Shown here one piece after another: positions 1 to 64,000 of a stretch of 64,000 nt of DNA (the stretch's first letter is position 1; every line of letters begins with the position of its first letter). The translations under genes were made by a program, and so were the position numbers. The stretch covers positions 558,001 to 622,000 of the forward strand of contig NZ_CP110136.1 in assembly GCF_025979705.1 (NCBI RefSeq), in the 5' to 3' direction. The DNA is from Hymenobacter sp. YIM 151858-1. Lineage in GTDB: Bacteria > Bacteroidota > Bacteroidia > Cytophagales > Hymenobacteraceae. Below the pieces are notes generated by a model. That model made no database searches and was not told where the DNA came from. It saw only the letters and a list, made by a program, of their open reading frames with translations.

Positions 1-335
1 CCGATCCGCTGCAGCGTGTCCTCCACCTGTTGCTGCTTGTACTGAAGCTGGGTTTCGTAGCCTAGGTGCTGCCACTTGCAGCCGCCGCAGGTGCCAAAGT
101 GCATGCAGAAGGGCTGCACGCGCAGCTCCGAGTACTTGTGAAAGTGCACGGGTACAGCCTCCAGAAAGCTCTTTTTCGACTTGGTGATGCGCAGGTCGAC
201 CACGTCGCCGGGCGCTACGCCCGACACGAAAATGACGAGGTTGTTGTGGCGCACGAGGCACTTGCCCTCGGCTACCATGTCTTGTATTACCACTTCGCGG
301 AGGTCCTCCGCGGGGATCTTCTTCGGATTGGGCAT
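1..335 (-). CDS. rlmD: 23S rRNA (uracil-C5)-methyltransferase RlmD/RumA, N-terminal part (3' end outside window)
   Basis: This is the first 111 codons of an RNA m5U methyltransferase of the TrmA/RlmD family, which methylates a uridine in 23S rRNA using SAM. The protein starts MPNPKKIPAEDL. Residues about 10-70 look like a TRAM RNA-binding domain. Then comes the iron-sulphur motif, with Cys77, Cys83 and Cys86 in a C-x5-C-x2-C arrangement (FCMHFGTCGGCKWQH). In the family a fourth cysteine and the Rossmann methyltransferase domain follow; they would lie beyond base 1. The start is the ATG at 333-335, the first in frame ahead of the TRAM domain. The cluster motif is diagnostic for the family, but the choice between RlmD and the closely related RlmC or TrmA is inference. 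Confidence 0.85.
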   Translation of the reverse strand, partial: MPNPKKIPAEDLREVVIQDMVAEGKCLVRHNNLVIFVSGVAPGDVVDLRITKSKKSFLEAVPVHFHKYSELRVQPFCMHFGTCGGCKWQHLGYETQLQYKQQQVEDTLQRI

Positions 336-601
336 TACTTGATTCACAAGCGCAAAGATAACCCACGGATTTTTGCGGATTTGCCGGAATGCATGGATTT
401 TAGGCTGCGCCTGCATCCTCGTACCAACCCTTGCCTTAACCCTTGAAGCCCAAGCGATATGCCGGGCCAATGAACCTAGGGCCGTTGTCCCACAGGGCGA
501 CTAACTGTTCTGCTCAAGCCAACGCTATTTGCTTGGCTCGAAACGAGCAGACGCGGCGACAGAACATGACCACTGCTAAGCCAATGACGACGCTACGCGA
601 C

Positions 602-2947
602 CTAGGGCGCCGCCAGGGCGGGCGAGGAACGCGGCATGAAAATCAGGGCATCGAACTCGCGGCGCAGATTGTGGCGGTTGAAAGGCGCTTTCGATTCGAA
701 AATGCCTACGTCGCGCAGCAGCAGGTTTTGATAGAGCCATTGCGTGCCGGGCGCCAGGGCGGGGCTGCGCACATCGAGCAACGACAACGGCAGCTTGGCC
801 GCATGAAAGTAGTACTCGTAGGTGCCCACCGGCGCGGCCGTGGCCTCGGCCCGCACAAAGGTGCTCGTGCTTTGGTCCTCGGCCCGAAACGAGCCTTCGT
901 GGAAAGCCATGCCCACGGCGAAATACGCCGGGCCGTAGGCGCGGCGCAGCCATTCGCCTAGGTTGCGCTCGGCGCCTTCGCCCTCGGCAGCTACGTGGGC
1001 GTTGTGCGCCCACACCGCCACCTTGGCGCCGGCCAGCTGCCCGCGCAGCCAGTGCACGTTTTCGGCCATGCAAGCATCGCGGTACGCACTGCCGAACACT
1101 TTTTTCAGGCTGATAAATGTGCTGTATTGCTCAATCAGGTGCAGCATCTGGCGCTGCCAGGCCACATCGGGCAGGTCGGTATCGTCGCGCAGTTTGCTTT
1201 GCATCTCGAAACCGCCGCGCAGCTCGGCCAGCTGGCTGCGCAGGGCTTGCAGCGCAGCACCTGGCCGGCTGTCGGCGGCAAACGGGTTCAGGGGCGATTC
1301 GCTTCGGCGCAGCTCTTTCACCTGGTTTTCGATGCGGGTGAGCAGGGCGTGCAGGTCGGTGCGCTTGGCGGGTACTTGCGCGCGCAAGTAGGCAATGGCG
1401 TCGTACGGGTGCTGCATATCCATGCCCAGCAGCTGAATTTTGGTGCTGGCGCGCTCGTTGTGGGTGCGCATCCATTGCACCAGCTCCAGCACCTCGGCGG
1501 TGTTCCACACACCTAGGCTCCGTACCAATTGGCGCACGTCGCCTTCGCCGGTGAGCACGTAGCGGTTGAGGGCCAGGCACGTGCCCATGTTGGCCTCCAG
1601 CACCAGCGCCCGCACGCCTTTTTGCTCTACCAGGTAGCGAAACAAACGGTGCTTTACCTGAAAAATCTCGCGCGAGCCGTGCGTTACCTCGCCCAGGCCG
1701 ATTACCTCGGCCGCGCCTACCAGCTGCCCAAAGGCCGCCAAATAGCGCACGTCGCCGCCATCGGGCTGCACGGTGCGCAGGGGCCGAGCGGCCTGGCGCA
1801 GCCACGCCAGCTCGGCCGCCGTGGGTAGGCCGGCCGCCCTAGGTGGCCGCGGGGTGTAGGGGCGCCCGTTAATAAGCAGCTGCACGTTGTCGATCCAAAT
1901 TGGCTCGCCGCCGTCGAGGCGCACGCCCAGGGCCAGTTGCTTCGCAAACGAGTTGTGCGAAATGGGCACCGAAAGCTCAAAGGCTTGCCAACCGTTGGCC
2001 GCCGGGGCGCCGGCAGTTACCGGCGTTGCCGAAAAGCTTTCGCGCTCACGAAACGGCCAACCAGAACGGTCGTCGTGGGTGAGCATGGCGTGGTAGAGCA
2101 CGAGAGGTTTATTGGTTGCCCGACCAGCTGAGTAACGCACGTGTCCGCGCACCACCAGCGTTTGGCCGTGCAGCGTATCGAGCGGCACTACGCCTAGGTA
2201 GGCGTAGGGGGCGGCAGCGCCCGGCACCGGCAGCAGCTGCAGGCTGGAGCGGCCGTTTTGGGCCAGCGTCGAATCGAGGCGCCAGCGGTACTGCGTGGGT
2301 GGGGTAGCGGTGGCGGGGCCGCGCCGCTCGAAATTCCAATCGGGCAACGGGGTGGTGGTGCTCAGCAGCAGCGGCTCGGTGCCTGGCAGGGGCGCATTGC
2401 GGTACGTGCGGCCGTTGTAGTGTACCTGCAAATCATCGAGCCAAACGGTGCCCTGGCCCCAAAACCGCAGGCCCAGCAGCAGCTGCTCGGCCTCCGCGCC
2501 CACGGGCAGCTGAATTTGCAGGCGCTGCCAATCGGCCGCAGGGGCAAGTTCGGCGGCGGGCGGGGTGTCGTGCGAGGCCAGATTGGCGCCGTGCCCGGCG
2601 GTTTGGGCGTGGGCGTAGAGCCACACTTTGCCAGCAAAGCCTTTGGTCCGTACCCAGCCCGTGATGGTAGCCGCGTGCCCGCGCAGCGAGTCGATGGGCT
2701 CGAGGGTGGTGTAAATGGCGGCGCCTACCGGCTCGGGGGCGCGGGTGGCATCAATCAGCAAACTGCCCCGGCCGTGTTTGGCTTGCGTGGTATCGATGGA
2801 AAGCCGGATGGCCTGACCACCCTTGTGCGCCCACAGCAGCAGCGGCTGCCGGCGGTTGGCATCGGGCTCGAAGCTAAGATTATGAATGGCCTGGCTTGCG
2901 GCTGGAAAACCGGTCAGCAACACGAGAAATAGTAGCACAAAACGCAT
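602..2947 (-). CDS. Secreted erythromycin esterase-family protein with N-terminal carbohydrate-binding-like domains
   Basis: A 781-residue exported protein. The start at 2947 gives a signal peptide (MRFVLLFLVLLTGFPAASQA); the frame can be extended to 3043, but that would run through a terminator hairpin. Two similar beta-rich segments (about residues 20-190 and 200-370) resemble jelly-roll carbohydrate-binding modules. The C-terminal ~370 residues match the erythromycin esterase family: GLGEVTHGSREIF, a LEAN motif, WMRTHN, LLGMD and a late WAHNAHVA motif carrying conserved His and Glu positions. Named members hydrolyse macrolide lactones, but most homologues in environmental bacteria have unknown substrates, so no resistance role is claimed. 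It probably acts outside the cytoplasm. Its stop codon TAG lies inside a CCTAGG palindrome. Confidence 0.8.
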   Translation of the reverse strand: MRFVLLFLVLLTGFPAASQAIHNLSFEPDANRRQPLLLWAHKGGQAIRLSIDTTQAKHGRGSLLIDATRAPEPVGAAIYTTLEPIDSLRGHAATITGWVRTKGFAGKVWLYAHAQTAGHGANLASHDTPPAAELAPAADWQRLQIQLPVGAEAEQLLLGLRFWGQGTVWLDDLQVHYNGRTYRNAPLPGTEPLLLSTTTPLPDWNFERRGPATATPPTQYRWRLDSTLAQNGRSSLQLLPVPGAAAPYAYLGVVPLDTLHGQTLVVRGHVRYSAGRATNKPLVLYHAMLTHDDRSGWPFRERESFSATPVTAGAPAANGWQAFELSVPISHNSFAKQLALGVRLDGGEPIWIDNVQLLINGRPYTPRPPRAAGLPTAAELAWLRQAARPLRTVQPDGGDVRYLAAFGQLVGAAEVIGLGEVTHGSREIFQVKHRLFRYLVEQKGVRALVLEANMGTCLALNRYVLTGEGDVRQLVRSLGVWNTAEVLELVQWMRTHNERASTKIQLLGMDMQHPYDAIAYLRAQVPAKRTDLHALLTRIENQVKELRRSESPLNPFAADSRPGAALQALRSQLAELRGGFEMQSKLRDDTDLPDVAWQRQMLHLIEQYSTFISLKKVFGSAYRDACMAENVHWLRGQLAGAKVAVWAHNAHVAAEGEGAERNLGEWLRRAYGPAYFAVGMAFHEGSFRAEDQSTSTFVRAEATAAPVGTYEYYFHAAKLPLSLLDVRSPALAPGTQWLYQNLLLRDVGIFESKAPFNRHNLRREFDALIFMPRSSPALAAP

Positions 2948-2990
2948 AGGGCCTAGGTACACGAATAAGTCGAGATTGGGCGCAAGCCCC

Positions 2991-6000: not shown

Positions 6001-7231
6001 GGGCTTCGCCGCAGCGGGGCGTGAAGCTGAACTGCCCGCTGGCGCTGCCGTTGCCCGATACGGTAACCGTGCCGGTGCTGGCGCCGGGCGCAATAGTGCC
6101 CGGCAAGCCGGCAAACGTGGCGTTAAAGCCGCCCGCGCCGTCGAGCAGGCCGCTGTTCACGCGCAGGCTCACGGGGTTGCCGTCGGCATCGGTGGCGCTC
6201 AGGTTAAAGTTCAGGGTCTGGCCCTCCTCAATGGTAAAGGCGCGCTGACCTAGGGTGGCCGGCGTAAACTGCGGACTCCGGTTGGGGGCGCAGGGCCGCA
6301 CCACCAGCTGCACGTCGCGGCGGGTGGTGCCCACCTGCACCTCGGTGCCGTTGATGCGCCGGTACTCTTTCACATCGATGGCGACTACGTACTTGCCCAT
6401 GGTGGTGGCCGCAAACCGGGCAATGCCGGTGCTGGCGTTGAGGGCAGCGTAGTTGCCGGCGCCGGGGCCAAACGGATTCACGGCGCTGTAGCCCGGCAGG
6501 TAATTAACCGGCACGGGCGGCAGCACAAAACTCGGGAACGGCGGGTTGCCGGCCGCCGGCGTGCCAAACGTGTAAATCAGCCGGTCGCCGTCGGCATCAA
6601 AAGCGTTGTTGATGAGGATAGTGGTATCGCCCTGGCACACCACCACCACCGCCGTATCCGAAAACACCGGCGAGGTATTCGGAATCAGCGGCGGGGCCAT
6701 TTCCGTGTACAACGACATGTTGGTATTGCCCGGGTTAACAATGTTGTTCACGTCGTTGTTGCGGGCAATGTCGCTGTAAAAGGCGTAGTAGCCATCAAAC
6801 GACACGGGCAGGTTTACCACGGCCGTGTACTTGGCCAGCGTAACCGGCACGTTGCCGCCCGGAATGGTGCAGCCGCCGGGCAGGCTCGGGTTGATGCGTA
6901 CCGTGCTGGTGCGCGGTATGCGCAGCAACCCCCCCGATGCCAACGGGCTGTTGATGGTGGTAAGCGGAATGCGGGCGTTGCCCTGCGACTTGTTGTAGAT
7001 GGATACCTCCACATCGGGCCGGCCCAGGCCGCTGGGCGTGGCCGGGCTGTCGGAGTTCACGTACACCACCACCGTCAGCTGGTAGCGAAACGGGGCGGCT
7101 TGCGGCCCGTTGGCATCCAGAAACTTGTACTGCATTTCGCCGCCGAGCAAGTGCGAACCTAGGGCGGAGCCCCCACTCAGCAAAACCAGTACAAACCACA
7201 AAGCTCCAAAGCGGAGTAAAGTTTTCATCAT
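3050..7231 (-). CDS. Giant gliding-motility-associated C-terminal domain protein (T9SS type B cargo)
   Basis: A secreted protein of about 1393 residues. The signal peptide (MMKTLLRFGALWFVLVLLSG) is followed by SHLLGGEMQYKF, a motif that commonly opens Bacteroidota proteins of this class. The middle holds beta-sandwich repeats of Ig/PKD-like type, with recurring CPGQSVTLTASG, ADAGPDVTVC and TYQW motifs. The last ~85 residues form the gliding-motility-associated (CHU_C, T9SS type B) domain: NVITPNGDGLNDVF, FNRWGKEVY, PAGTYYFEF. In the family this domain targets proteins to the type IX system for surface attachment or release. The start is ambiguous between ATGs at 7231 and 7228. The longer frame to 7276 is rejected because it crosses the preceding gene's terminator. 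Its binding target is unknown. Confidence 0.88.
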   Translation of the reverse strand: MMKTLLRFGALWFVLVLLSGGSALGSHLLGGEMQYKFLDANGPQAAPFRYQLTVVVYVNSDSPATPSGLGRPDVEVSIYNKSQGNARIPLTTINSPLASGGLLRIPRTSTVRINPSLPGGCTIPGGNVPVTLAKYTAVVNLPVSFDGYYAFYSDIARNNDVNNIVNPGNTNMSLYTEMAPPLIPNTSPVFSDTAVVVVCQGDTTILINNAFDADGDRLIYTFGTPAAGNPPFPSFVLPPVPVNYLPGYSAVNPFGPGAGNYAALNASTGIARFAATTMGKYVVAIDVKEYRRINGTEVQVGTTRRDVQLVVRPCAPNRSPQFTPATLGQRAFTIEEGQTLNFNLSATDADGNPVSLRVNSGLLDGAGGFNATFAGLPGTIAPGASTGTVTVSGNGSASGQFSFTPRCGEARPNPYDVAVTATDAACGSKTVAEVFQIFVTKTTAPTGLTGTQELCDLSRTYTYTATGPAPTNGYSWRVQGGVIQGASNGSSVQVLWNGSGQGRVSVRNRSTLGCLSDSATSVVNILPAVTLGVTPSSPTICPGQSVTLTASGATSYVWSGGGQTYTGSSITVSPTQTTTYTVTSPNAQCSNGRVTITVNPAVVANAGANRALCSGEQTTLGTAAVTGYTYQWSPAVGLSSTTVAQPVFSQTLAAGLAPQTLTYTVVATSPQGCSAASQVVITLNPAAAADAGPDVTVCANQRVRLGTAALGGYTYQWSPAAGLSSAGAAQPTFTAPTVSTAQTLKLYLTATTAQGCSARDSVLVRINPRPEADAIQGSSSVCPQAGAVAYSIRNPRGTAYQWLIEGGTIGSGQGTGSVTVNWGSTNANASLKAFRLNAEGCSSDTVVFPVRINQLLATERPTGPTRVCQTDGPFTYQTQFTNGSSYAWQIIGGTQVSTNQATLQVQWTRPGTGKIVVTETSQPGSVRCLGTSDTLFVTVLPSPAAAPIAGPRRVCAGAGTVSFSVAGASTSTFQWTVQQGTSAPVALSAAGTTATFAVPAPAAVTAPTSYTLTVRETNALGCTGVASTMQFTVVPQLTAAAVTGPRSVCPGSFAGLGYSLAGAPGSTYQWAITGGAVVSGQGTERVQVDFDPNATARSVSVTETSAVGCAASFSVVLDNATVALNTASVDLQDDRRITLALNVPNNANSPNQVRIMRRDAGSTAAFAQVGTVANTAATYTDTGVNTDDKAYEYRLDLVNACGTTLSSTNHTTMRLELTNAEPGQGRTEGKVALRWSAYLGFPVARYEVYRTADGGQLQLMTTVPATASPTYTAGFASSAAGFNQGFRIKAISAEAQASQAWSNQADAAFENKLGFYNVITPNGDGLNDVFFIRSVELYPGNSFAVFNRWGKEVYRTSNYRNTWGADGQPAGTYYFEFKQSNGQISKGWFEVVR

Positions 7232-12291: not shown

Positions 12292-14715
12292 ATGTCACAC
12301 GAAGCTTACGCGCTTTTTTTCCGCGAGCTGGCCAACGATAAGGTTGCGCTGGTAGGAGGCAAAAATGCCTCCCTAGGTGAAATGTTCAACCGCCTCACCC
12401 CGCAGGGCATCAACGTGCCGAACGGCTTTGCCACCACCGCGGCGGCCTACTGGCTTTTCCTCGACGAGAACAACCTGCGCGAGCCGTTGGCCAGGCTTAT
12501 GGCGCAGGTAGACAAGCAGGAGTACAGCAATGTGCAGCAAATCGGCGCGCAGGCCCGCGAGCTGCTGCGCTCGGCCCGCATTCCGGCGCCGGTGGCTGCT
12601 TCTATTATTGATGCTTACCGCGAGCTATGCGCCTCCTACGACCGCGAAATACAAGTGGCCGTGCGCAGCAGCGCCACCGCCGAAGATTTGCCCACCGCCA
12701 GTTTTGCCGGCCAGCACGATTCGTTCTTGAACGTGCAGGGCGAACAGGCGCTGCTGCAGGCTTGCCTGCGGTGCTACGTGTCGCTGTTCAACGACCGCGC
12801 CATCAAGTACCGCCTGCAAAACGGCTTCGACCACTTACGCGTGGCATTGTCGGTGGGTGTGCAGAAGATGGTGCGCTCCGACCTCGCCTCGGCCGGCGTG
12901 GCTTTCACCATCGAGCCCGAAACCGGGCACGATAATTTTATTTACCTGACCGGCAGCTGGGGCCTGGGCGAAAACGTGGTGCAAGGCGCCGTCAACCCCG
13001 ACGAGTTTTACCTGTTCAAGCCCGCTTTGCGCGGCGGCTTTCGGGCGCTGGTTACCAAAAAGCTCGGCGACAAAGCCAAGACCATGCGCTACGTGGAGCA
13101 GGGCACCGGCATTGTAAACACCGATACTCCCGCCGAAAAGCAGTCGGTGTACGTGCTCACCGATGCCGAGGTGGAGCAGCTGGGCCGTTGGTTTTTGCAG
13201 ATTGAGGAGCACTACGGCATGCCCATGGACATTGAATGGGCCAAAGACGGGCACGATCAGCAGCTCTACATTGTGCAGGCCCGGCCCGAAACCATTCACC
13301 ACGGGCAGCGGGCGCTGCGCCTGCACGAGTACCACCTAACCGAAAAGCACAAGGTGCTGGCCACCGGCAAAGCCGTGGGCAACCAGATTGCCTCGGGCGT
13401 GGCGCGCATCATCAGCTCGCCGGCCGAAGGGCACCGCCTGCAGCAAGGCGAAATACTGGTAACCGACAGCACTAGTCCCGACTGGAACGTTATCCTGAAG
13501 AAAGCCGCCGTAATTGTAACCAATAAAGGCGGCCGCACCAGCCACGCCGCCATTGTAGCGCGCGAGCTGGGCCTCTCGGCCGTGGTGGGCACCCAAAACG
13601 CCACCGAGCAAATTCAGGACGGGCAGCTCATCACCGTGTCGTGCGCCGAGGGCGACGAAGGCAAGGTGTTCGATGGTAAGTTGGCCTGGCAGGAAACCGA
13701 AATCGACCTGGAGAAGGTGCAGCTGCCCAGCACCAAGCCCATGCTGATCCTGGCCGACCCCGACCGAGCCTTGCAGCTAGCCCGCTACCCCAGCCAGGGG
13801 GTGGGGCTGATGCGCATGGAGTTCGTCATCAACAACGCCATTCAAATTCACCCCATGGCCTTGGTGAAGTTTGATGAGCTGCAGGACTCGCAGGCGCGCG
13901 ACGTGATTGAGCAGCTTACTGCGCACTACGACAGCAAGCCGGCCTACTTTGTGGATAAGCTGGCGCAGGCCATTGGCTTTGTGGCCGCGGCCTTTTACCC
14001 GCGCGAGGTTATCGTGCGCATGAGCGACTTCAAGACCAACGAATACGCCAACCTCATTGGCGGGCAGCAGTTTGAGCCAAGTGAGGAAAACCCGATGCTG
14101 GGCTTCCGGGGTGCCTCGCGCTACTACAGCCCGCAGTACCGCGAGGGGTTCCGGCTGGAGTGCGAAGCCCTGAAGCGCGTGCGCTCCGAAATGGGCCTCA
14201 CCAACGTGAAAGCCATGATTCCGTTTTGCCGCACCGTGGCCGAGGGCCAGCAAGTGGTAGCCCTGATGGAGGAATTTGGCCTGAAGCGCGGCGACGACGG
14301 CCTGCAGATTTACGTAATGGCCGAAATCCCGAGCAACGTAATCCTGGCCGAAGACTTCGCGCAGGTGTTCGACGGCTTCTCCATCGGCTCGAACGACCTC
14401 ACGCAGCTTACCCTAGGTATCGACCGCGACTCCTCGATTGTGAGCCACTTGTTCGACGAGCGCAACGAGGCCGTTACGCGCATGCTCGCGCAGGTTATCC
14501 GCATCAGCAAAGCCTGCGGGCGGCCCATTGGCTTGTGCGGCCAAGCCCCCAGCGACTACCCCGCGTTTGCGCAGTTCTTGGTGGCGCAGGGTATCAACAG
14601 CATTTCCTTTACGCCCGATGCGCTGCTGAAAGGCATTGCCAACATGGTGCAGGCCGAGCAGGCCGTAGCCAACGGGCAAGTGGCCACGTCGCAAGAGCAA
14701 GCAGTGCCCGCCTAA
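12292..14715 (+). CDS. ppsA: Phosphoenolpyruvate synthase
   Basis: An 807-residue PEP synthase (pyruvate, water dikinase), which converts pyruvate and ATP to PEP, AMP and phosphate for gluconeogenesis; E. coli PpsA has 792 residues. The N-terminal ATP/pyruvate-binding domain begins LVGGKNASLGEM and includes the CQVAVRSSATAEDLP-like segment (QVAVRSSATAEDLP). The swivelling phosphohistidine domain has GGRTSHAAIVAREL with the phosphorylated His at about residue 418. The C-terminal TIM barrel has NDLTQLTLGIDRDS and GLCGQAPSDYP, with the catalytic Cys at about 750. The start is ATG 12292; the in-frame upstream ATG at 12256 adds a non-conserved stretch. It is monocistronic. Confidence 0.95.
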   Translation: MSHEAYALFFRELANDKVALVGGKNASLGEMFNRLTPQGINVPNGFATTAAAYWLFLDENNLREPLARLMAQVDKQEYSNVQQIGAQARELLRSARIPAPVAASIIDAYRELCASYDREIQVAVRSSATAEDLPTASFAGQHDSFLNVQGEQALLQACLRCYVSLFNDRAIKYRLQNGFDHLRVALSVGVQKMVRSDLASAGVAFTIEPETGHDNFIYLTGSWGLGENVVQGAVNPDEFYLFKPALRGGFRALVTKKLGDKAKTMRYVEQGTGIVNTDTPAEKQSVYVLTDAEVEQLGRWFLQIEEHYGMPMDIEWAKDGHDQQLYIVQARPETIHHGQRALRLHEYHLTEKHKVLATGKAVGNQIASGVARIISSPAEGHRLQQGEILVTDSTSPDWNVILKKAAVIVTNKGGRTSHAAIVARELGLSAVVGTQNATEQIQDGQLITVSCAEGDEGKVFDGKLAWQETEIDLEKVQLPSTKPMLILADPDRALQLARYPSQGVGLMRMEFVINNAIQIHPMALVKFDELQDSQARDVIEQLTAHYDSKPAYFVDKLAQAIGFVAAAFYPREVIVRMSDFKTNEYANLIGGQQFEPSEENPMLGFRGASRYYSPQYREGFRLECEALKRVRSEMGLTNVKAMIPFCRTVAEGQQVVALMEEFGLKRGDDGLQIYVMAEIPSNVILAEDFAQVFDGFSIGSNDLTQLTLGIDRDSSIVSHLFDERNEAVTRMLAQVIRISKACGRPIGLCGQAPSDYPAFAQFLVAQGINSISFTPDALLKGIANMVQAEQAVANGQVATSQEQAVPA

Positions 14716-51807: not shown

Positions 51808-52118
51808 CGACTTTATGCTTACTCAATTCCTGCACAACAACTTACGAAGGGAACACCGTGCTGCGGCTGTGCCCAGCCAGCACTACCACCTAGGGGTGCG
51901 TCAATCATGGCCGTGGTGAAAAAGTGTGGTACAAAAGCTGAACGGCGCAAGCCAGCAGGCGGGCGTGCCACCGCCTGCCGACAGCCGAGAGCGGACAGGT
52001 TTCCGAAAGCGGCACCTTGCTGGTGTCCACAATCGGAGGCATTTAGGTAAACTGGAACGGGACCAGGAAGAGGGTTCACTTCATTGCCCTCGTGGCCCTG
52101 CCTTGTTGACCCGTTTGT
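51808..52118. other. Gene-free segment between the ABC operon and a recombinase remnant
   Basis: About 310 nt. A CCTAGG is at 51890, the last before a 7.5-kb stretch without any. Open frames here lack recognisable protein features. No terminator hairpin was recognised after the ABC operon. Confidence 0.45.
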
Positions 52119-52560
52119 ATGCATTTTGGCTATACCCGCGTCTTGGCCAAAGAACAACAGCTCGATGCCCAAACTCGACCATCTCAAGGCCGCAGGAATC
52201 AACCACCTATCTCAGGAAAAGCCAGCGGCACCACCACACAACGGCTGGTGCTCACCTAGTTACGGGTTGCCCTGCGCGCCGGCGAAACCGTGGCCGTAGC
52301 TCGCGTGAACCGGCTAGGCCGCAACAGCGCCCACATCATGCAGGCGGTGGCCGACCTGCACGCCCGGCAGGTGCGTTTCGCACCCCCACACGTGGGCACC
52401 AACACGGCCAAGCCCGCCGGGTGCGGGCATCTTCGCTGCGCTGGCCGAGCACGGCCGCGAAAACATCCGTAACCGGGCCATGACGGGCATCATCTTGCCT
52501 AAGGAGCAGGCACCTGAGCCGCCGCCCGGGGCACGCTGCGAGGCCGGTCAGGTTGCAGGT
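52119..52560 (+). pseudogene. Decayed serine recombinase (resolvase/invertase family)
   Basis: Reading across frames restores a serine recombinase. The first frame gives MHFGYTRVLAKEQQLDAQ (family start GYARVS...Q..LD.Q, with the catalytic Ser position now Leu). A shift gives LDHLKAAGINHLSQEK; another gives ASGTTTQRLVLT, a TAG stop, then LRAGETVAVARVNRLGRNSA and HIMQAVADLHARQVRF; a last shift gives GIFAALAEHGRENIRNRAMTG. At least three frameshifts, one stop and the lost catalytic Ser show it is inactive. The C-terminal DNA-binding part is not clear. Confidence 0.85.
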
Positions 52561-52701
52561 CCCACCGGCCGCTGGTATGTCCGTGTTCAAACCGTGGCCG
52601 CCACAGGCATCAGCTAGTCGAGCGGCAAGCGCTACCGGCGGCAGTTGGCCCCGTAAGCCGGTGCCGCAGCACGGCGTGGCTGTCGGGGATAAACCGGCCA
52701 A

Positions 52702-55700
52702 TCATGCAGGCGGTTGAGCAGGCAAGGGCAGGCGGATGCGCACGTAGGCACCCCCGGTGGGGGCGTTGCCTGTTTCCAGCTGGCCCCCAAGCAAGGCCAC
52801 CCGGTCGCGGATGCTGCGCAGGCCAAGCCCGGGGCGGTTTGTGGCGGCCGGGGCAAAACCCGCGCCGTTGTCTTCTACCCGCAGCAGCACCCAGCCCGGA
52901 GTGGTTTCCAGCTCCAGCGTAGCCGCCGTGGCACCGTGGGCGTGCTTAACAATGTTTTGGACCAGCTCCTGCGCAATGCGGTAGAGGGCCAACTCGAGGG
53001 CGGGCGTCAGCGGAGCTGCATCCTGATCAAGTTCGACGTGGCTGCGCAAGTGCAAATGCGGGGTGCTCATCTTGCGCCCGATGTCGTGCAGGGCCGCCGA
53101 CAAGCCGAACTCTTCCAGCGCCATGGGCACGAGCTCGTGCGAGAGGGCCCGCGTTTGGTGAATGGCCTCGCTTAGCAGCTTGTCGGCCTCGGCGCTGGCA
53201 GCGGCCAGGGCGGGGGCCGACCCCAGCAGCGGGGCGCGAAGTTGGTCGAGGCGCAGCTTGGTGGCGTAAAGAATTTGGCCGATGCCGTTGTGCAGGCTTT
53301 CGGCCAGGCGCTTGCGCTCGGCCTCCTGAGCGGCCTGAACGGCCTGAAACAAAGCCAGTTGCTGCGTCAGACGCAGGCGCAGGTTGTCGGCTTCAAGGCG
53401 CTGCAGCTCGCTAATATCCAGATCCACGCCCAGCACGCGTGCGGGCTGTCCGGCTTCGTCGGGCAGCGCCACGGCTTTTAAGCGCACCGTTTTAATTTCG
53501 CCGGCTACGCGCAGGCGCAGCGTTTCCTCAAAGCCTTCGCCGGCCCGGAGTAGGCGCACCAAGTTTTCGGCCCGGTCCCGATTCTCGTCCAGCACAGCCC
53601 CGAGGTAGTAGTCGGGCGACACGGCGCTGCCCACGGGCAAGCCGAACAGGTGGTACATGCCTTCGGACCAGCGCAAGGTGCCGGTAGCCAGCTCGTAGTC
53701 CCAGCTGCCGAGGCCGGCCACGGCTTCGGCCTGCTCCAAGAGGCGCAGGTTGCGCAGGCGCTCCTGCTCAGCCCGCTTGCGGGGGGTGATGTCTTCGCCG
53801 ATGACCAGCACGCCGTCGTCGCCGAGCTTGGTGGCGTTGGAACGGAACCAGCCCGTGAGCGTACCGTCGGCGTAAGACAGCTCCCGGTCGTCCCGCTCAC
53901 CGGTTTCGATTACGCGGCGGTAAGAGGGCAGCAAGCCTCCGCTTTCCACCTCAGGAAACAATTCCGAATAGCGCCGGCCCACCAGCTGCCGCCCACCGGC
54001 TACTTGTTCGGCGGCGGGGTTGACGAAGATGTACTCCAGATCCACGATGCGCCCCTGCTTGTCGCGCACGGCCTTGAAAGCGCACACAAAGAAGGTAAGG
54101 GCCTCGGCAATGGCGTGCAGCAGGTCGCGGTTTTCCTGCAGCTGCTGGGTGCGCCGCGCCACACGTTCCTCCAGTTGGGCGTTGAGCTGGGCCAGTTGAG
54201 CCTCGCTGGTGCGCAGGCCTTCCTCGGCCTGCTTGCGGGCGGTAATGTCGAAGTTAACGCCTGCCCCGCGCACGGGCCGGCCCTGGTCATCGAAATAGAA
54301 GCGCCCGTGGCAGGCCATCCAATGGATGCTGCCGTCGGCCCAGCGCACCCGCACCTCAAACTGCAGTTCGCCCGTTTCCAGCGCGCGGGCAAAGCCGGCG
54401 TCGAATGCCGCCCGGTCGTCTTCCAGCACGTGGTGGCGGGCAATTTCCTGTCCCCAGGCAGACTGCGAGCTATCGTAACCGAAAATTTGGTCGTGGCGCA
54501 AGCTGCGGTAGCTTGAAGGGTCGTTGGTCAGGTCCAGGTACCAGGTGCCCATCTCGGCCGCTTCCACGGCGATTTGCAGCCGCTCCTGCGCGTCGTGCAG
54601 GGCGGCTTCGGCACGGGCGCGTTCCACGGCGGCCCAGGTGCGCTCAGCGGCTTCCTGTATCAGCGCCACGTCGTCGCCGCTCCACTTGCGCGGGGTTAGG
54701 TGCTGCGCGGCGAAGGAGGCCACCCAGCGTCCTTCTTTGAGGAGCGGCACGGCCAGCAAGGCCGCCAGGTTCACCGCCCGGCACTCGGCGCGCGCCGCCT
54801 CGCTTAGGTTCGGGTCGGTTTCGGCGTCGGCGATGCGCACCAGTCGGCCGGCGCGCAGCTCCTGGCCCGCCCAGCCAAAATCCTCCACCCGGCCGCGGCC
54901 GATGAGCGGTGGCACGCCTTCGCGCACGTAGTTGTCGGCCACCACCCAGTGCTCGTAGTCCGGCTCAATGTCGACGTAATACACGCGGTCGGCCGCCAGA
55001 AATTCGCCCAGCACGCGCATCGCCGCCCGCTGCATGGCCACCGGGTCGGCGAGCGGGCGCAGCGCGTCGCTGAGCTGCAGCAGAAACGCCTGCCGCTGCT
55101 CGTGGCGCTTGCGCTCGGTGATGTCGTTGAACACGCCGGCCACCCGGCGGCTCCCGGGCCCGCCTACGCGCGTGCACTGCATGGTGAACCAGCGGTCGAG
55201 GTGGGCCTGGTAGCCTTCGGTGTGGAGCGGCTCGCCGGTTTGGTACACGCGGGTCAGGGCGTCGAGCCAGCTTTGCTCGAGGTTCGGCATCAGTTCGCTG
55301 GCCTTCCGGCCGTTGGCGTCGGCCAGCCCGGTGTGCCGGGCGAAGGCGCCGTTTGTTTCCCGGTAGACGAGGTCCACCACCTGCTCATGCTCATTCACCA
55401 CCAGCTCCTGGAGGCAGAAGCTTTCGTCGATGGATTCGAATATGGTGCGGTATTTTGCTTCCGACTCGCGCAGGGCTTCCTCGGCGCGGGCACGTTCCAG
55501 CCGCAGCCACACCCGGGCCGCCACCTCCTGCAGCAGCCCGATGTCGTCGGGCGCCCATGCGCCTGGCTCGGAACGGCACACGCCCAGGTCAAACAGCCAG
55601 CGCCCCTCAGCCACGTAGGGCGTATTCACCAGCGCCCGGACGCCGATGGCGCGGTATGCCGCGGCCTGCGCGGCCGGGCGCTGGCCGTCGTCTACGTCGC

Positions 55701-58700
55701 TGACAATCATGGGCTGGCCCGCCGCCAGCCGCTGGTTGTCTTCCTCGGTGTGGAAGGTGGCCAGAGGATACGTGCCGGTCATGGTTGGCAGCCCGGCCGG
55801 GTGGGCGTGGTGCAACACGGTGCACTCTCCGGCTTCCGCGTCGACGGCGACGCAGAAGCAGTGCACCAGCTGCAAGTGCTCGGTCAGGCGCTGGCCCGCC
55901 AGCTCCATTACCTCCTCCACGGTGCTCAGCGGCGCGAAGTCGCTCATCAGGCCGGCTATAAACGCCAGGTTCGCCTCGCGGCGCTTGCGCTCGGTGATGT
56001 CGCGGAACACGACGGCAATAAGCGGGCTGCCCTCGCTACCGACGCGCGCATAGTACAGGCTAAACCAGCGGTCCGTGTCGGCGTGGTAGTCTTCCATCCG
56101 TTCGCCAACGCCGGTTTGGTACACGCGGGTGAGGGTGTCCATCCACGGCAGCTCTGTGTTGGGAAACAGCTCGCTGGCTTTGCGGCCGACGACATCTCGC
56201 GCGCCCGACTGCCGCGCAAAGGCGGGGTTGGCCTCGTGGTAGAGGATGTCGACCGCCTGGCCCCGTTCGTCCAGGAGTACCTCGTAGAGCGCGAAGCCCT
56301 CGTCGATGTTCTCGAACAGGGTGCGGTATTTTTCTTCCGAGGCGCGCAGGGCGGCTTCGGCGCGGGCGCGCTCGATGCGTGGGAACACACGGGCCGTAAT
56401 TTCCTGCAGCAGCCCGATTTCGTCGGGTCGCCACTCCCGGGGCTCACGGCTGGTAACGGCGATATGCCCCACCCATTTTCCCTCCTGCAGAAAGGGGACG
56501 GTTACAAAACTACCGACCTGAATGCTGGCGTAACTCTCCGCGTTGCTGCGCTCGTCTTGGGCGGTGTTGCGCATGATGAACACCTCGCCGGCGCGCTGCG
56601 ACTGACGGTATTCTTCGGTGAGGTACTCGTCCAACCGGTAGCTTTGTTTCAGGCTTTGCACCTCGGCGGCCGACCAGCCTTGGTTAACCGTTAGTATTCC
56701 CCCGATGTCGTCGACATCCACAAAATAACAGCCCGATAATGCGAGATAGGCTCCAACGCGCTTGGTAACTGCCTGCATGATGTCGTCGGACGCGGAGAGC
56801 ACGGACAAGTCGTGGCTGACCTCGGCCAGCAAAGCGACGTTTAACTCGCGGCGCTTGCGTTCGGTGACGTCGTTGAAGAGCACGCCCACCTGCCGGGCTT
56901 CGGCCGGCCCGATGCGGAAGGCGTGCGCATCAAACCAGCGCCCGAGCTGGTCGACGTGGTACTCCAGGCGCTCGGCCTGCCCGGTGCGGGCTACGCGGCC
57001 ATACACCTCAAACCAGCGCGGCTCCAGGTCGGGCACCAGCTCGCGCACGGTTTTGCCCCGGGCCTCGGCCGGCAGGCCCGAGTGCTGCACAAACGCCGGG
57101 TTGAACTCCAAGTAGCGGAAATCGACGGCGTGCTGCCCGGTTTCATCGAAGAGCAGCTGCAGCCGGCAGAAGCCCTGGGTGGTGGCCGCCAGCAGGGCGT
57201 GGTAGTTGTCGGTGGCTTGGCGGGCCAGCTCGTCCTTAAGGCGCAGGATTTCGGCTTCGGCCTGTTGGCGCTCGGTCACATCTTCCCAGGTGTGCACCAG
57301 CCGTTCGCCGTCGAGCGGGGTGTTGGTAATGGCAAACCACATTTGGCGGCCCCGGAACTGGGCTTCGTGGACGTAGCTGTTGCGCTGGCCGGTTTCGAGG
57401 ACTTCGCGGAAATGTGGGAGTTGCACCCGAGCGTTTTTGCCGTGTTCGGTGAAGAGCCGGCCGGTGACGTCTTCGCCCAGCATGTCGCGGCTGGCCCGGT
57501 TGATGTACTCGTGCACGAAATCCACGACGGCACCGGCTTCGTTGCGCACGGCCCGGTACACGGCAATGCCGATGTGGGGCGCGTCGATGACGTCCTGGAG
57601 CAAGGTTTTGCTTTCGCGCAGCTCCTGTTCGGCCTGTTTGCGGGCGGTGATGTTGCGGGTGGTGGTGGCCACGCCGTCGTCGAGCTTGACCACCGATTGG
57701 TAAAACCAGCCGTCGAACTGCTCGTGCCGGTAGTGCCGCTCGCGCTGGTCGGGCACGCCGGTTTCGAGCACCTGCCGAAAAGTGTCGAAAATGCCTTCTT
57801 CGATGACGCCGGGGTTACGCTGGCACAGGCGCTGGCCGATGACGTTGCCGTACACCTGCTCAGCGGCGGCGTTGTTCAGCACCCAAGTGAAATCGACTAC
57901 CTGGCCCTGCTCGTCGCGCACGGCCTCGAACACCTGTACCAAATCCAGGGAGCTGTCGATACTGCGGCGCAGCAGCGCCTGGTTTTGTTGCAAGGCCTGC
58001 TCGGCCTGCACCCGCTCGGTAACGTCCTGCACCAGCCCGCGCAGCCCGGTGGGGGTGCCAGCTGCGTCGCAGCGCACCTCGCCGTGGGCTTCGAGGGTGC
58101 GCCACTGCCCGTCGGTGCGGCGGATGCGGCGTCGGTAGGTATAGGGCTGCCGGGTAGCCACGGCCTGGTCGAGCACCTGACGCACAGCGGCCGCGTCGTC
58201 GGGATGCGAACGGGCGTCGATGACCTCCAGCGTGACCTCAAAGGATTGGGGCTCTTCGCCGAAGAGGTGGTACAGGCCGTCGGAAAAGTAAAAGCTTCCC
58301 GTCGTGAGGCCAGCCTCGTAGGAGCCCATGTGGGCCACAGATTCCATGTCGAGCAGCAGCTGGCTGCTGCGCTGCTGAGTGGCCTGGGCGCGGTGGCGGT
58401 CCGTAACATCCTCCCAGAACACCCAGCGCTGCCCGGCCGGGGCGGGGCCCAGGCGCAAGCTCACCCATTGCCGGGCGTGGGGCAGCCACACGTCGGGCGG
58501 CGTATCGCCCGCGGCCAGCAGCCGTTCCAGAGCGGTGGCCAGAGCGGGCGGCAGGGGTGCCTGGGCGAGGGATTGACCGAGTAGGGCGTCGGGTTGGGCC
58601 TTGCACCAGCGGGCCGCCATCGGGTTGACGCGGCAGATGATGCCGTCTTGGTTGAGCACAAGCACGCCCCAGGGCAGCGCGTCGAGCAGCGCGGTGCAGT

Positions 58701-58755
58701 CGGACGGCGCTTCGGGGAATAAAGCGTCGGGCGGAAAGGGTGGAGGCGTGACCAT
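52702..58755 (-). CDS. Giant cytosolic multi-PAS/GAF sensor histidine kinase
   Basis: A 2017-residue kinase without signal peptide or membrane helices. Approximate order: five PAS domains (20-640), GAF, PAS, GAF, PAS, GAF (640-1370), a PAS with PAC (1385-1500), a coiled coil (1500-1540), two more PAS (1540-1775), then a HisKA_3-type dimerisation domain with ERKRLAESLHNGIGQ (phospho-acceptor His1822) and a HATPase with LVQNIVKHAHG and VEDNGAGFAP. This is the NarX/DesK-like kinase class, which usually pairs with a LuxR-type response regulator; none is in the window. Start 58755 begins at the first PAS; the frame extends to 58851. It contains no CCTAGG, unlike its neighbours. Confidence 0.92.
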   Translation of the reverse strand: MVTPPPFPPDALFPEAPSDCTALLDALPWGVLVLNQDGIICRVNPMAARWCKAQPDALLGQSLAQAPLPPALATALERLLAAGDTPPDVWLPHARQWVSLRLGPAPAGQRWVFWEDVTDRHRAQATQQRSSQLLLDMESVAHMGSYEAGLTTGSFYFSDGLYHLFGEEPQSFEVTLEVIDARSHPDDAAAVRQVLDQAVATRQPYTYRRRIRRTDGQWRTLEAHGEVRCDAAGTPTGLRGLVQDVTERVQAEQALQQNQALLRRSIDSSLDLVQVFEAVRDEQGQVVDFTWVLNNAAAEQVYGNVIGQRLCQRNPGVIEEGIFDTFRQVLETGVPDQRERHYRHEQFDGWFYQSVVKLDDGVATTTRNITARKQAEQELRESKTLLQDVIDAPHIGIAVYRAVRNEAGAVVDFVHEYINRASRDMLGEDVTGRLFTEHGKNARVQLPHFREVLETGQRNSYVHEAQFRGRQMWFAITNTPLDGERLVHTWEDVTERQQAEAEILRLKDELARQATDNYHALLAATTQGFCRLQLLFDETGQHAVDFRYLEFNPAFVQHSGLPAEARGKTVRELVPDLEPRWFEVYGRVARTGQAERLEYHVDQLGRWFDAHAFRIGPAEARQVGVLFNDVTERKRRELNVALLAEVSHDLSVLSASDDIMQAVTKRVGAYLALSGCYFVDVDDIGGILTVNQGWSAAEVQSLKQSYRLDEYLTEEYRQSQRAGEVFIMRNTAQDERSNAESYASIQVGSFVTVPFLQEGKWVGHIAVTSREPREWRPDEIGLLQEITARVFPRIERARAEAALRASEEKYRTLFENIDEGFALYEVLLDERGQAVDILYHEANPAFARQSGARDVVGRKASELFPNTELPWMDTLTRVYQTGVGERMEDYHADTDRWFSLYYARVGSEGSPLIAVVFRDITERKRREANLAFIAGLMSDFAPLSTVEEVMELAGQRLTEHLQLVHCFCVAVDAEAGECTVLHHAHPAGLPTMTGTYPLATFHTEEDNQRLAAGQPMIVSDVDDGQRPAAQAAAYRAIGVRALVNTPYVAEGRWLFDLGVCRSEPGAWAPDDIGLLQEVAARVWLRLERARAEEALRESEAKYRTIFESIDESFCLQELVVNEHEQVVDLVYRETNGAFARHTGLADANGRKASELMPNLEQSWLDALTRVYQTGEPLHTEGYQAHLDRWFTMQCTRVGGPGSRRVAGVFNDITERKRHEQRQAFLLQLSDALRPLADPVAMQRAAMRVLGEFLAADRVYYVDIEPDYEHWVVADNYVREGVPPLIGRGRVEDFGWAGQELRAGRLVRIADAETDPNLSEAARAECRAVNLAALLAVPLLKEGRWVASFAAQHLTPRKWSGDDVALIQEAAERTWAAVERARAEAALHDAQERLQIAVEAAEMGTWYLDLTNDPSSYRSLRHDQIFGYDSSQSAWGQEIARHHVLEDDRAAFDAGFARALETGELQFEVRVRWADGSIHWMACHGRFYFDDQGRPVRGAGVNFDITARKQAEEGLRTSEAQLAQLNAQLEERVARRTQQLQENRDLLHAIAEALTFFVCAFKAVRDKQGRIVDLEYIFVNPAAEQVAGGRQLVGRRYSELFPEVESGGLLPSYRRVIETGERDDRELSYADGTLTGWFRSNATKLGDDGVLVIGEDITPRKRAEQERLRNLRLLEQAEAVAGLGSWDYELATGTLRWSEGMYHLFGLPVGSAVSPDYYLGAVLDENRDRAENLVRLLRAGEGFEETLRLRVAGEIKTVRLKAVALPDEAGQPARVLGVDLDISELQRLEADNLRLRLTQQLALFQAVQAAQEAERKRLAESLHNGIGQILYATKLRLDQLRAPLLGSAPALAAASAEADKLLSEAIHQTRALSHELVPMALEEFGLSAALHDIGRKMSTPHLHLRSHVELDQDAAPLTPALELALYRIAQELVQNIVKHAHGATAATLELETTPGWVLLRVEDNGAGFAPAATNRPGLGLRSIRDRVALLGGQLETGNAPTGGAYVRIRLPLPAQPPA

Positions 58756-59429
58756 GCTTAGCAAGCGAAACAAAAGGCTCCGCCACTCAAGTGTACGACA
58801 CTTTTGCCGGCTCAGGCAAGCGCCACGGTAGCAAGCCGGAGCGTAGCGCAAAGGGCTATGCCAGCATTGCGGCTGATTAGGCGAACACGGGCTTGGCGAC
58901 TTTGCAGGCTCCTGGCCGCCACGTAGTCAAGGCTAGCAAGGCGTTGGGCAAGGCAGTTGCCGACGTTCGGCGTGTGGCTGCATCAGCTGAATTTGGCAAT
59001 GGGCGCGTGATAAGCGTGCATGGCCAAGTGCAGATTTATTTCCGGCGCATCGAAGAGCCGCTTCAGCAACAGCCTCGACGCTTTTTAGGCACTGGTTTAC
59101 TCTTACTGCGGGTAGCCCAACTCCTTGTGCCCACCCAAAAAGGAATGGGGTGAGCCAGCGCCCCAAAGTGGGCCGCCGCTGCACGCCGGAGAGGCTTCCA
59201 GGCAGAAGGGCATCCGCTTGGGGCTCCGGAGCTGCGCCTACCGAAGGCACCGGTCGTTCCGGCAGTCGTGGGGCCCACCACCGCCCAAGCGAGGGCAGCT
59301 CAGCATTCCCGCATACATCTTTCTGCCTTACAGTGGGCGTCCCAAGCCCGTCCATTTGTTTGACCTTCGCACCAAATTTTTAACCAAGCGCAATCACGCT
59401 CACTCTACTGATGACTTGTTCGGCGGCAC
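58756..59429. other. Gene-free region upstream of the giant kinase
   Basis: About 670 nt. Several short open frames on both strands (for example 58893-59153 plus and 58933-59355 minus) have skewed composition and no domain. It presumably holds the kinase promoter. It lacks CCTAGG throughout, as does the kinase gene. No transposase remnant was identified with confidence. Confidence 0.5.
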
Positions 59430-61769: not shown

Positions 61770-61781
61770 GTGCGCAGCGGC

Positions 61782-64000
61782 TTACTGCACTAGCTTCTCG
61801 GCCCGAAACACGTCGTCGGCGGCTTGCAGGAGCTTGGCGCGCAGCTTGGGATTGTAGTTGGGGTGCGCCTGCAGAAAGCTCCGGACTGTGGCCGCTGCGC
61901 TGGCCGTCTGGTAATTACCTAGGGTAGCCTGCAGCCAGGAGTAGGGGAAGAAGATGTCGCCGGTCAGCTGAATTTCTTCGAGCAGCTCGAGGCTTTGCGG
62001 CAGGTACTTCTCGGAGGTGCGCTGGCGCAAGGGGTGGTGCAGCGCACCTAGGGCCGAAAGCACCCACGCTTCCTTTTCGCGGTTGTGCTCGTCGCGCAGC
62101 GAGGCGAAAAACGCGTCGCGGGTGGCCACGTCGGGCGAGAGGGCGGGCATCAAAAACTGCAGGCGCTTTTGGCGGTCGGGGTTTTTGATGCGGGCCAGTT
62201 GCTTGGTCAGAATCTGTGGATCGGCAGCGTAGTCGCGCACGGCCAGCGCCTGCGCCAGCGAGGTGTAATCGTCTTCGGTAAGCGTAACGCCAGTAGGGGC
62301 CTGCTGCTTGTCCCAAACCTGGTACAGGCGCTGCTGGGCAGCGGGTGTGAGGGCAACCGATTGGTAGCTCTTGAACAGCAGCTTGCGGATGTTGGCCGAC
62401 GAGTTTTGCGACATGGTACGCCACAAGTCAGCTTCGAGCGCCGGGGCAAGTGCAGAGCGTTCTTCAGGCTTCAGCAGCTTCCAGTAGATGTCGGAAAGCT
62501 GGCCGGTGAGCAGCTTCAGGTTCAGCTCTTCGATTTCGAGGGGAAGCTGTTGGCGGTACAGGTCGAGGAGCTGACGCGGGGGCAGCACCCGGCCGTTGAG
62601 CATGTTCTCGTAAAGGCTGATGTAGGCCGCGGCCCGCGCCACCGGGTTCGGCAGTTTGCCTAGGTTGGGCAGCAGCTGCTTATCGATGGGGAACACCCCG
62701 TAACCTAGGCCCGAGGAGTTGAACAAGACAAACGCCGGAGCTGGTTGGCCAGCCGCTTCCGCCAACTGCACCTGCCGCTCGTTCATGTTTACGGTCAGCT
62801 CCTTGCTGGTGCCGTTGGGGTATACCAGCAGCACCTCGAACACCTGCGGCCACAGGCGGTCGGAGTTGTCTTCGGCGCGCTGCGTGAGTTCGAGCTGGCT
62901 GATTTTGCCGCCTTGGGTTTGCAGCTTGTAATCAATGACGGGGCGGCCAGGCTGGTTTACCCACACCTGGTTCCAGGCCTGCAAATCGGCGGGCGTGCGG
63001 CGGTCGAGGATGCTGATGAGGTCGGGCCAGGTGGCGTTGCCGTGGGCGTAGGTGCGCAAGTATTCCTGCAAGCCCTGCCGGAAAGCTTCTTCGCCCATCA
63101 GCCGCTCGAGCTGCCGCATCATAATGGGCGCCTTGTGGTAGATGATGTTGCCGTAGAGCGAGCCGGCATCCTGCAGGTTGTTGAGCTCCTGCCGAATGGG
63201 GTTGGCGCCCTGGGTGCGGTCGATGCCGTACGCGGCCGGGAAGTGGTCGGTCACGAACTTGAGGTCGTAGTTGGAGCCCTCTACGGCCACCTGCGTGATT
63301 TTATCGGCCATGAAGTTGGCAAACACCTCCTTCATCCACACGTCGTTAAACCACTGCATCGTCACCAGGTCGCCAAACCACATGTGGGCGGTTTCGTGGG
63401 CGATGAGCGAGGAGCGGGCAATCTTCTGATCCTGCGTGGCGCCTTCGTCGAGGAACAGCGTGGAGGCTTTGTAGTCAATGGCGCCCACGTGCTCCATGCC
63501 GCCGTACTGAAAGTCGGGAATGGCCGCGAAATCGAACTTGCGGAAGGGGTACGGAATGCCCGTGTACGCCTCCATGAACTTCAGCGCATCGGCATGAATC
63601 TGGAAGATCGGGCCTAGGCTAAGCTGCAGTTTGCTGGGGTCGGTTTCGCGGTGCAACAGCTGCATGGTGCGCCCACCCGCCTCGCGCGACAACCGCGTGA
63701 ACTTGCCCGCCACAAACGAGAACAAGTAGGTGCTGATGGTGTCGGAAGGGGCGAAGCGGTAGGTTTTGGTACCGGCCGTGGTTGTGGAATCCTGCACCGG
63801 TCCGTTGGCCAAGGCTTGCCAACCCTGCGGCACCGTAAGCTGCAGCTGAAAGCTGGCCTTCAGGTTGGGCTGATCGAACACCGGGAACACCGTGCGGGCG
63901 CGGTCGGGCACCAGCAAGGTGTAGAGGAAATCGTCGGAGCGGTTCAGCGACAAATCACCGGCTACAAACTCAATCTGCACGGTATTCGGGCCGCGCTTGA
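61782..64000 (-). CDS. M1 family aminopeptidase (5' end outside window)
   Basis: The C-terminal ~739 residues of an aminopeptidase N-like enzyme; coding continues past base 64000 (the frame reads KRGPNTVQIEF at the edge). The exopeptidase motif is GGMEH, where classical enzymes have GAMEN or GGMEN. The zinc site is intact: HETAHMWFGDL with the third ligand Glu in WMKEVFANF, spaced by the classical 18 residues. A C-terminal ERAP1-like helical domain fills the last ~300 residues. Hydrolysis of N-terminal amino acids from peptides is the family activity. Convergent with the hydrolase gene, 12 nt apart. Confidence 0.93.
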   Translation of the reverse strand, partial: KRGPNTVQIEFVAGDLSLNRSDDFLYTLLVPDRARTVFPVFDQPNLKASFQLQLTVPQGWQALANGPVQDSTTTAGTKTYRFAPSDTISTYLFSFVAGKFTRLSREAGGRTMQLLHRETDPSKLQLSLGPIFQIHADALKFMEAYTGIPYPFRKFDFAAIPDFQYGGMEHVGAIDYKASTLFLDEGATQDQKIARSSLIAHETAHMWFGDLVTMQWFNDVWMKEVFANFMADKITQVAVEGSNYDLKFVTDHFPAAYGIDRTQGANPIRQELNNLQDAGSLYGNIIYHKAPIMMRQLERLMGEEAFRQGLQEYLRTYAHGNATWPDLISILDRRTPADLQAWNQVWVNQPGRPVIDYKLQTQGGKISQLELTQRAEDNSDRLWPQVFEVLLVYPNGTSKELTVNMNERQVQLAEAAGQPAPAFVLFNSSGLGYGVFPIDKQLLPNLGKLPNPVARAAAYISLYENMLNGRVLPPRQLLDLYRQQLPLEIEELNLKLLTGQLSDIYWKLLKPEERSALAPALEADLWRTMSQNSSANIRKLLFKSYQSVALTPAAQQRLYQVWDKQQAPTGVTLTEDDYTSLAQALAVRDYAADPQILTKQLARIKNPDRQKRLQFLMPALSPDVATRDAFFASLRDEHNREKEAWVLSALGALHHPLRQRTSEKYLPQSLELLEEIQLTGDIFFPYSWLQATLGNYQTASAAATVRSFLQAHPNYNPKLRAKLLQAADDVFRAEKLVQ

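Follow-up and report, generated by a model that had tools for sequence, protein, structure and literature searches.

What keeps one six-base word, CCTAGG, at very high frequency along a bacterial chromosome? The question is raised by a stretch of 64,000 bases (the window) of Hymenobacter sp. YIM 151858-1, positions 558001-622000 of contig C1 of its genome, which has 4.62 Mb in 3 contigs and is here denoted G000. A preliminary description of the window had counted about 85 copies where about 22 were expected. Our recount gave exactly 85, and the expectations under Markov models of order 0, 1, 2 and 3 were 21.5, 14.5, 10.3 and 14.7, respectively. Among all hexamers in the window with an expectation above 3, CCTAGG has the highest z value at orders 2 and 3. 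The order-4 value of 73 is circular, as most CTAG in the window (85 of 113) is part of CCTAGG. The depletion of CTAG words, described as normal in bacteria, holds here at orders 0 and 1 (113 observed vs 217 and 174 expected) and not at order 2 (117), where CCTAGG itself props CTAG up. The over-representation is genome-wide, with 5,325 CCTAGG in G000 vs 75 copies of the reversed control word GGATCC, and the excess is thereby confirmed; the window Markov excess, this control count and the family-wide counts given below rule out chance or base composition as the cause. Our tentative answer is that oriented, lineage-specific "password" sequences may mark the chromosomes of this Bacteroidota family for a pilus-independent self-recognition, by uptake or otherwise.

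The word had been described as a palindrome, which is true of the six-base core alone. In the window 80 of the 85 cores belong to an oriented word, ACCTAGG followed by a base other than T (42 forward, 38 reverse), and the remaining 5 have other flanks. In G199 and G210, two carriers of the motif which together with G000 are called clade A, the enriched word is likewise ACCTAGG followed by G, C, sometimes A and hardly ever T (ACCTAGGS, with S for G or C). The flank pairs at 373 sites in 304 kb of G000 were C..T 115, A..G 108, G..T 56 and A..C 37 times, only 19 sites had C or G on both sides, and A..T was seen 11 times where independent flanks would give 88. The flank patterns of G199 (815 sites) and G210 (199 sites) concur, A..T occurring 18 times in G199 vs 186 expected.

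When the copies were aligned by orientation, GGC was enriched immediately 5' of the A of the motif, and a second box, GSTSCC, appeared upstream of the core at -28 to -23, with G at -28, T at -26 and C at -24 (z values 5.8, 6.5 and 10.0 in G000 and 8.6, 8.8 and 9.1 in G199; in G210, which has fewer sites, T at -26 alone exceeds z 4). At least three of the four box bases are present at 33, 29 and 24% of the noncoding copies and at 18, 17 and 13% of the coding copies in G000, G199 and G210, respectively, compared with 6% at random positions and 4, 3 and 8% at xAC-Leu-Gly positions without CTA (47, 60 and 12 positions). These alignments show that the motif is oriented and bipartite, consisting of GSTSCC, 19 bases and GGCACCTAGGSC, with CCTAGG as the core and about 37 bp overall. 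A hairpin between the two boxes was considered and seems unlikely, since pairing would want G at -27, whereas C is enriched there.

The force that keeps the motif can be followed in codon usage. Genes in the window were called simply. Within them 43 of 47 sites lie in the frame xxC CTA GGx, read as Leu-Gly, and the other 4 in the frame CCT AGG, so that the frame given in the preliminary description stands, including all seven of its examples (957, 2193, 6249, 12372, 14412, 18231, 46171); a further 38 sites are noncoding or span a gene end. The same frame accounts for 194 of the 218 coding sites in 304 kb of G000. The accompanying claim that CTA is concentrated before GGN is borne out as well. 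In G199, CTA makes up 495 of 773 leucine codons that follow a C-ending codon and precede glycine, where CCTAGG can be completed, vs 33 of 712 after other codons, and its share before residues other than glycine is 4.7-4.9%. The corresponding counts in G000 are 194 of 389 and 17 of 380, and overall CTA amounts to 50-65% of the leucine codons able to complete CCTAGG and 2-11% elsewhere. The glycine codon follows the flank rule, being mostly GGG or GGC after xAC codons and mostly GGT after xCC and xGC. Hymenobacter cavernae, the locus of which coincides with that of G256, has another dialect of the motif, and there Asn-Leu-Gly is converted in 22 of 22 cases.

These data show that the force acts at individual sites, both inside and outside genes. 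Codon preference was rejected as the cause, as CTA is raised in clade A only where the word is completed, and noncoding DNA has the higher site density. Nor is one mutation type, deamination for example, likely to be the whole cause, judging from codon use: according to the flank, the third base of glycine codons moves toward G or T, and the preferred bases would need transversions as well as transitions.

Motif density is 1.2-1.4 per kb in G000, G199 and G210, with 3.1-3.6 per kb in noncoding and 0.8-1.2 per kb in coding DNA, and it peaks at 5.3-7.5 per kb between convergent genes, the genes being called simply, from open frames and the GC content of third codon positions. Oriented copies within 60 bp of each other form inverted pairs in 31 of 35 cases (31 to 4; 8 pairs with an ambiguous member dropped), compared with 250 of 485 farther apart (250 to 235; 104 dropped). 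Beyond about 200 bp the spacing between copies is close to random, and a possible site within 200 bp of another copy is used less often (odds ratio 0.57, z -5.4, p 6e-8), the direction being the same in 8 of 8 genomes and individually significant in 2. The strands are near equal in six stretches, one of G000 (105/110) and five of G199, and the counts were 84/66 in G210 and 67/54 in G314. Secondary contigs of G000 (C2, 100 of 158 kb sampled; C3, 80 of 101 kb) and G199 (C2 and C3, 20 kb each; C4, all 11 kb) carry 0.0-0.11 copies per kb, which is background, as is the 0.05 per kb of contig C2 of G357. Of ten proteins scanned from the secondary contigs and a genomic island considered below, three are conjugation proteins, one each on G000 C2, G000 C3 and G199 C3.

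The motif is restricted and patchy among relatives. Among named relatives the nearest found is Solirubrum puertoriconensis, with 90% identity in one protein; NCBI places it in Cytophagales, and its locus coincides with that of G210. In an evenly sampled survey of the order (194 genomes, G000 included) only G000 exceeded 1,349 copies. In other families of the order, G043 and G150 have 1,349 and 1,138 CCTAGG with raised controls (610 and 546), and G014 has 807 vs 62 of the control. Among 200 genomes of the family, presumably Hymenobacteraceae, 9 are high, with 5,325-8,806 copies (G000, G199 with 5,678, G210, G235, G256, G314, G355, G357 and G361), 4 are intermediate, with 1,209-2,331 (G339, G340, G348 and G349), and 187 have 888 or fewer; of the 8 genomes sampled in the genus of the window, 3 belong to the high class and the other 5 are low, at 123-249 copies. 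In a midpoint-rooted tree of 20 genomes, built from five concatenated proteins of one syntenic region, the carriers fall in four groups with low genomes interspersed, namely A (clade A), B (G235, G314, G361), C (G256, G355, G357) and D (G339, G340, G348, G349). Sister species switch the motif on or off.

The groups also differ in dialect. Group C uses A[CG]CTAGGT, with As ahead of the word in G256 (AASCTAGGT). G235 of group B has CCCTAGGG, while its partners G314 and G361 have CCCTAGGT alongside other words. The group D word is TGGCCTAG, with 111 copies in 120 kb of G348, where CCTAGG is incidental. Family members outside these dialects carry unrelated oriented words, TTGCCCCCCA or TTTATACTT. 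Four of the 200 genomes have exact TTGCCCCCCA in 969-1,172 copies (about 0.2 per kb), and none of the other 196 has more than 30. By a hand count of the table, 23 of the 50 genomes sampled in genus g3 have more than 500 copies of TTTATACTT per strand and a few are intermediate; the total reaches about 4,300, forward close to reverse. None of the 27 genomes with TTGCCCCCCA or TTTATACTT is among the 13 CCTAGG carriers. At single loci of 21 kb each, TGCCCCCC occurs 15 and 9 times in two Hymenobacter stretches with AATTTGCCCCCCA, and TATACTT 29 times in a Pontibacter stretch with TTTATACTT. An oriented word with a density near 1 per kb could not be seen in G074 and G195 (60 kb each), G202 (40 kb), G206, G214, G218 and G328 (20 kb each), or in 21-kb loci of Adhaeribacter and Rufibacter. 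The low relatives G074 and G202 have local repeated words (TAGAGACG in the former, AGTTGTC-type repeats in the latter). As to other words, GATC is almost absent from G235, G314 and G361 (0-1 per 20 kb vs 17-48 in the other 17 genomes sampled), and GGATCC occurs fewer than 10 times in the whole genome of many members of genus g2.

Within clade A, at 86% nucleotide identity, site identity between G000, G199 and G210 is 59-75%. Control words whose conservation equals or exceeds that of CCTAGG numbered 1 of 20 from G000 to G199 (GGATCC, a single site), 3 of 20 from G199 to G000, 1 of 19 from G000 to G210, 6 of 19 from G210 to G000 and 0 of 20 from G199 to G210. The conservation of TGCGCA nearly equals that of CCTAGG; TGCGCA and TGCGCGA are mildly over-represented (about 2- to 4-fold) in many of the genomes sampled, whether rich or poor in the motif. 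The hexamer with the largest net loss in G000, over about 95 kb aligned between the three genomes, is CCTAGG, with 28 lost and 6 gained; the polarity of this and of the changes given below is read from three genomes without an outgroup. Since 22 of the 28 losses lead to CCCAGG or its complement, Vsr-type repair was suspected. A match to Vsr (PF03852) was obtained in G000, 11 kb away from a cytosine methylase, and in neither G199 nor G210. The island in which it lies (C1:3010001-3030000) scores as Druantia type II, with DruE, DruF and DruM (a cytosine methylase) alongside Vsr, and has 0 CCTAGG in 20 kb. In aligned stretches of G000, CTTGG changed to CCTGG in 26 of 113 cases and CTAGG to CCAGG in 23 of 207, compared with 0 of 178 for CTCGG, 0 of 119 for CTGGG and 3.0% in other contexts; in the sister genomes CTTGG and CTAGG change in 0-5.3%. 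The Druantia island with Vsr thus appears to erode the motif in G000, by very-short-patch repair of CTWGG (W being A or T) to CCWGG. Loss there affected 14 of 65 sites with the right flanks and 6 of 8 with wrong ones (p 0.004, small numbers), which suggests that upkeep of the motif continues in G000, and no significant flank-dependent difference was found in the sister genomes.

It is possible, although we would not call it probable, that the motif is a tag read by a recognition machine, with a molecular drive like that of DNA uptake sequences (DUS) as the mechanism. A sequence-specific machine would favour DNA carrying the tag, and tagged alleles would spread by molecular drive, as DUS and uptake signal sequences (USS) do in Neisseriaceae and Pasteurellaceae. 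A change in receptor specificity, or loss of the receptor, would then produce new dialects and tag-free sisters. The ATPase of type IV pili and type II secretion (PF00437) is absent from all 27 genomes searched by profile (13 carriers and 14 low genomes), in a search that did not include minor pilins; the control matched in 14 of 14 known genomes. Pilus-based uptake was rejected on this ground, and without this ATPase family any receptor would need to be of a different type; our guess would be an outer-membrane DNA importer of Bacteroidota. By analogy, then, the motif may work like a DUS-type tag, and we do not claim that it is one.

Several observations, besides the missing pilus ATPase, weigh against such a tag. 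Most one-base variants of the 8-mer are near or below the Markov expectation, apart from the last base, with a few modest excesses (for example ACCAAGGC, 64 vs 38), whereas in DUS genomes, as described in PMC3630211, one-base variants outnumber exact copies. Conversion is near complete in preferred contexts, as for Asn-Leu-Gly in G256. Flanks are independent and symmetric in G256, G357 and G235. The reduced use of sites near another copy reaches only about 200 bp, and in G199 the effect was reversed in three control codon sets out of four and repeated in one (glutamate). One 140-kb stretch each of G361 (29/56) and G256 (36/18) is strand-imbalanced, a broader G256 word being balanced at 212/195. 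Contig C6 of G357 (16 of 66 kb sampled) has 0.37 copies per kb, above background. The conservation of CCTAGG is not unique either: CCATGG is as well conserved, as are a few more of the controls, and from G210 to G000, a comparison affected by Vsr erosion, 6 of 19 do as well or better.

Some of these points are what biased repair would predict. Here a site-specific nicking or repair enzyme would resolve mismatches toward the motif by gene conversion, and positions a single change short of the motif would drift into it. For HIP1, the highly iterated palindrome of cyanobacteria, a comparable model has been proposed (PMC4390886). The near-complete conversion, the lack of enrichment of most one-base variants and the near-random spacing past about 200 bp would all fit, and the reverse case, Vsr-type change of CTWGG to CCWGG, seems active in G000. 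The scarcity of copies near another copy would not be expected of a purely local enzyme, resident contigs are mostly without the motif, unless they were recently acquired, and no candidate enzyme was found. We regard biased repair as unlikely, yet worth keeping in mind.

Binding sites of a chromosome protein, such as a nucleoid or segregation factor, each under weak selection, seem to us about equally unlikely. The bipartite anatomy of about 37 bp, the chromosomal distribution, the redundancy within 200 bp and the flank-dependent retention in G000 speak for them. Fast switching between sisters and unrelated words within one family, which would be unusual for a chromosome-binding protein, speak against them.

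We hold a methylation-linked highly iterated palindrome, recognised by an orphan methyltransferase as for HIP1, to be rather improbable. Density and patchiness do resemble those of HIP sequences (PMC4390886), and flanks are symmetric in lineage C and in G235; the word is oriented in clade A. Nor did a shared methyltransferase, put forward in the preliminary description as a possible cause, emerge from the same profile searches, in which none of PF01555, PF00145, PF07669 and PF02086 (PF02384 was not tested) matched in all 13 carriers. G199, with its 5,678 copies, has no match to PF01555, PF00145 or PF02086 (E <= 0.001), and its weak PF07669 match is an MmeI-type enzyme; the carriers G210 and G349 have no PF07669 match. 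The enzyme was an attractive candidate, being conserved and of a family that recognises oriented words, and in G199 the gene sits among motif-bearing genes (L144:3398-6958; homologs at L124 and L204-L210). This enzyme was compared in G000, G199, G235, G314, G340, G348 and G357 and in the low genomes G202 and G218, with Pfam domains for two of them, and was rejected as the reader, since its target domain does not co-vary with the motif among the nine homologs. Between G000 and G199 the target domain is 57% identical and the other parts 95-98%, though the motif is common to both; between G235 and G357 it is 96% identical, though the motifs differ. Nuclease and methylase motifs are intact in all nine genomes, and the target-recognition domain differs between the sister species of two pairs (G000/G199, G202/G218), with the remainder 95-99% identical.

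An oriented signal for recombination or chromosome translocation, like Chi or the FtsK-orienting polar sequences (KOPS), would account for short, oriented, enriched, lineage-specific words and for the strand imbalance in the G361 and G256 stretches, and is very improbable, given that such signals are strand-biased and the two strands are near equal in G000 and in the five G199 stretches.

As to individual sites in the window, oriented copies in the Leu-Gly frame lie at 957..962 (minus strand, in gene 602-3043, minus), 6249..6254 (plus, in gene 3050-7276, minus), 12372..12377 (minus, in gene 12256-14715, plus, a phosphoenolpyruvate-utilising enzyme), 18231..18236 (minus, in gene 16933-19464, plus, a cation ATPase) and 46171..46176 (minus, in gene 44576-48163, plus). 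A close inverted pair at 14751..14767, directly past gene 12256-14715, could form a terminator-like hairpin. Two inverted pairs have a spacing of 33, one at 25113..25151 between the convergent genes 23771-25060 (plus) and 25154-26068 (minus) and the other at 33190..33228 between the divergent genes 31985-33064 (minus) and 33520-35010 (plus). The core supplies the TAG stop of a called gene at 8 sites (601, 19460, 26190, 27294, 29526, 59429, 60122 and 61765), the first being the plus-strand core at 601..606, which ends gene 602-3043. The longest motif-free stretch, 7.5 kb at 51895..59428, is mostly the gene of a 2,049-residue PAS/GAF histidine kinase (52702-58851, minus).

Iterated uptake tags are established in Neisseriaceae and Pasteurellaceae, as is the iterated HIP1 word in cyanobacteria, and our search of the literature on Hymenobacter found nothing on a methylome, a DNA uptake sequence or CCTAGG. 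A family with several unrelated oriented words, on/off sisters and sites by the thousand offers a natural experiment in the origin, spread and death of such words, and comparison of sister genomes gives a route to the reader protein. If the tags govern uptake they would be, to our knowledge, the first pilus-independent uptake code; if they do not, a strong and unexplained force acts on synonymous sites (CTA from about 5% to 64% in G199). Riemerella columbina is another member of the Bacteroidota. It reportedly prefers its own DNA (PMC7965970).

The motif can finally be compared with the known systems. It differs from Chi and KOPS in being near strand balance in the G000 and G199 stretches. Like the targets of MmeI-family Type IIL/IIG enzymes it is an oriented word, and one such enzyme lies among motif-bearing genes; unlike them, it is not tracked by the target domain, and the enzyme is also present in two low relatives. 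HIP1 has a density of about 1 per kb, is patchy, and is replaced by another word in some cyanobacteria, and HIP1 and alternate HIPs are palindromic and linked to a cognate methyltransferase (PMC4390886). The likeness in kind to HIP1 that had been suggested therefore holds for density (about 1 per kb), patchiness and the replacement of words between species, and fails on palindromy in clade A and on a cognate methyltransferase among the families tested, so that the motif is not a HIP on these two counts. DUS have thousands of copies, dialects and inverted pairs at terminators (PMC3630211). Like DUS/USS, the motif is an oriented word of about 1 per kb on both strands (1.2-1.4 per kb and balanced in clade A), with inverted pairs and gene-end enrichment in clade A, dialects among related species and rarity on DNA that may be mobile or recently acquired, five secondary contigs of G000 and G199 and the island being at background. 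In copy number TTTATACTT, at up to about 4,300, is also DUS-like, and exact TTGCCCCCCA reaches only about 0.2 per kb. Unlike DUS/USS, the motif has an upstream second box, its one-base variants show little excess, the use of possible synonymous sites rises to all of them in some contexts, and PF00437 is absent from all 27 genomes. The anatomical features of DUS/USS that were tested are thus present in clade A and the pilus machinery is not, and among known systems DNA uptake sequences are the nearest analogue of this motif.

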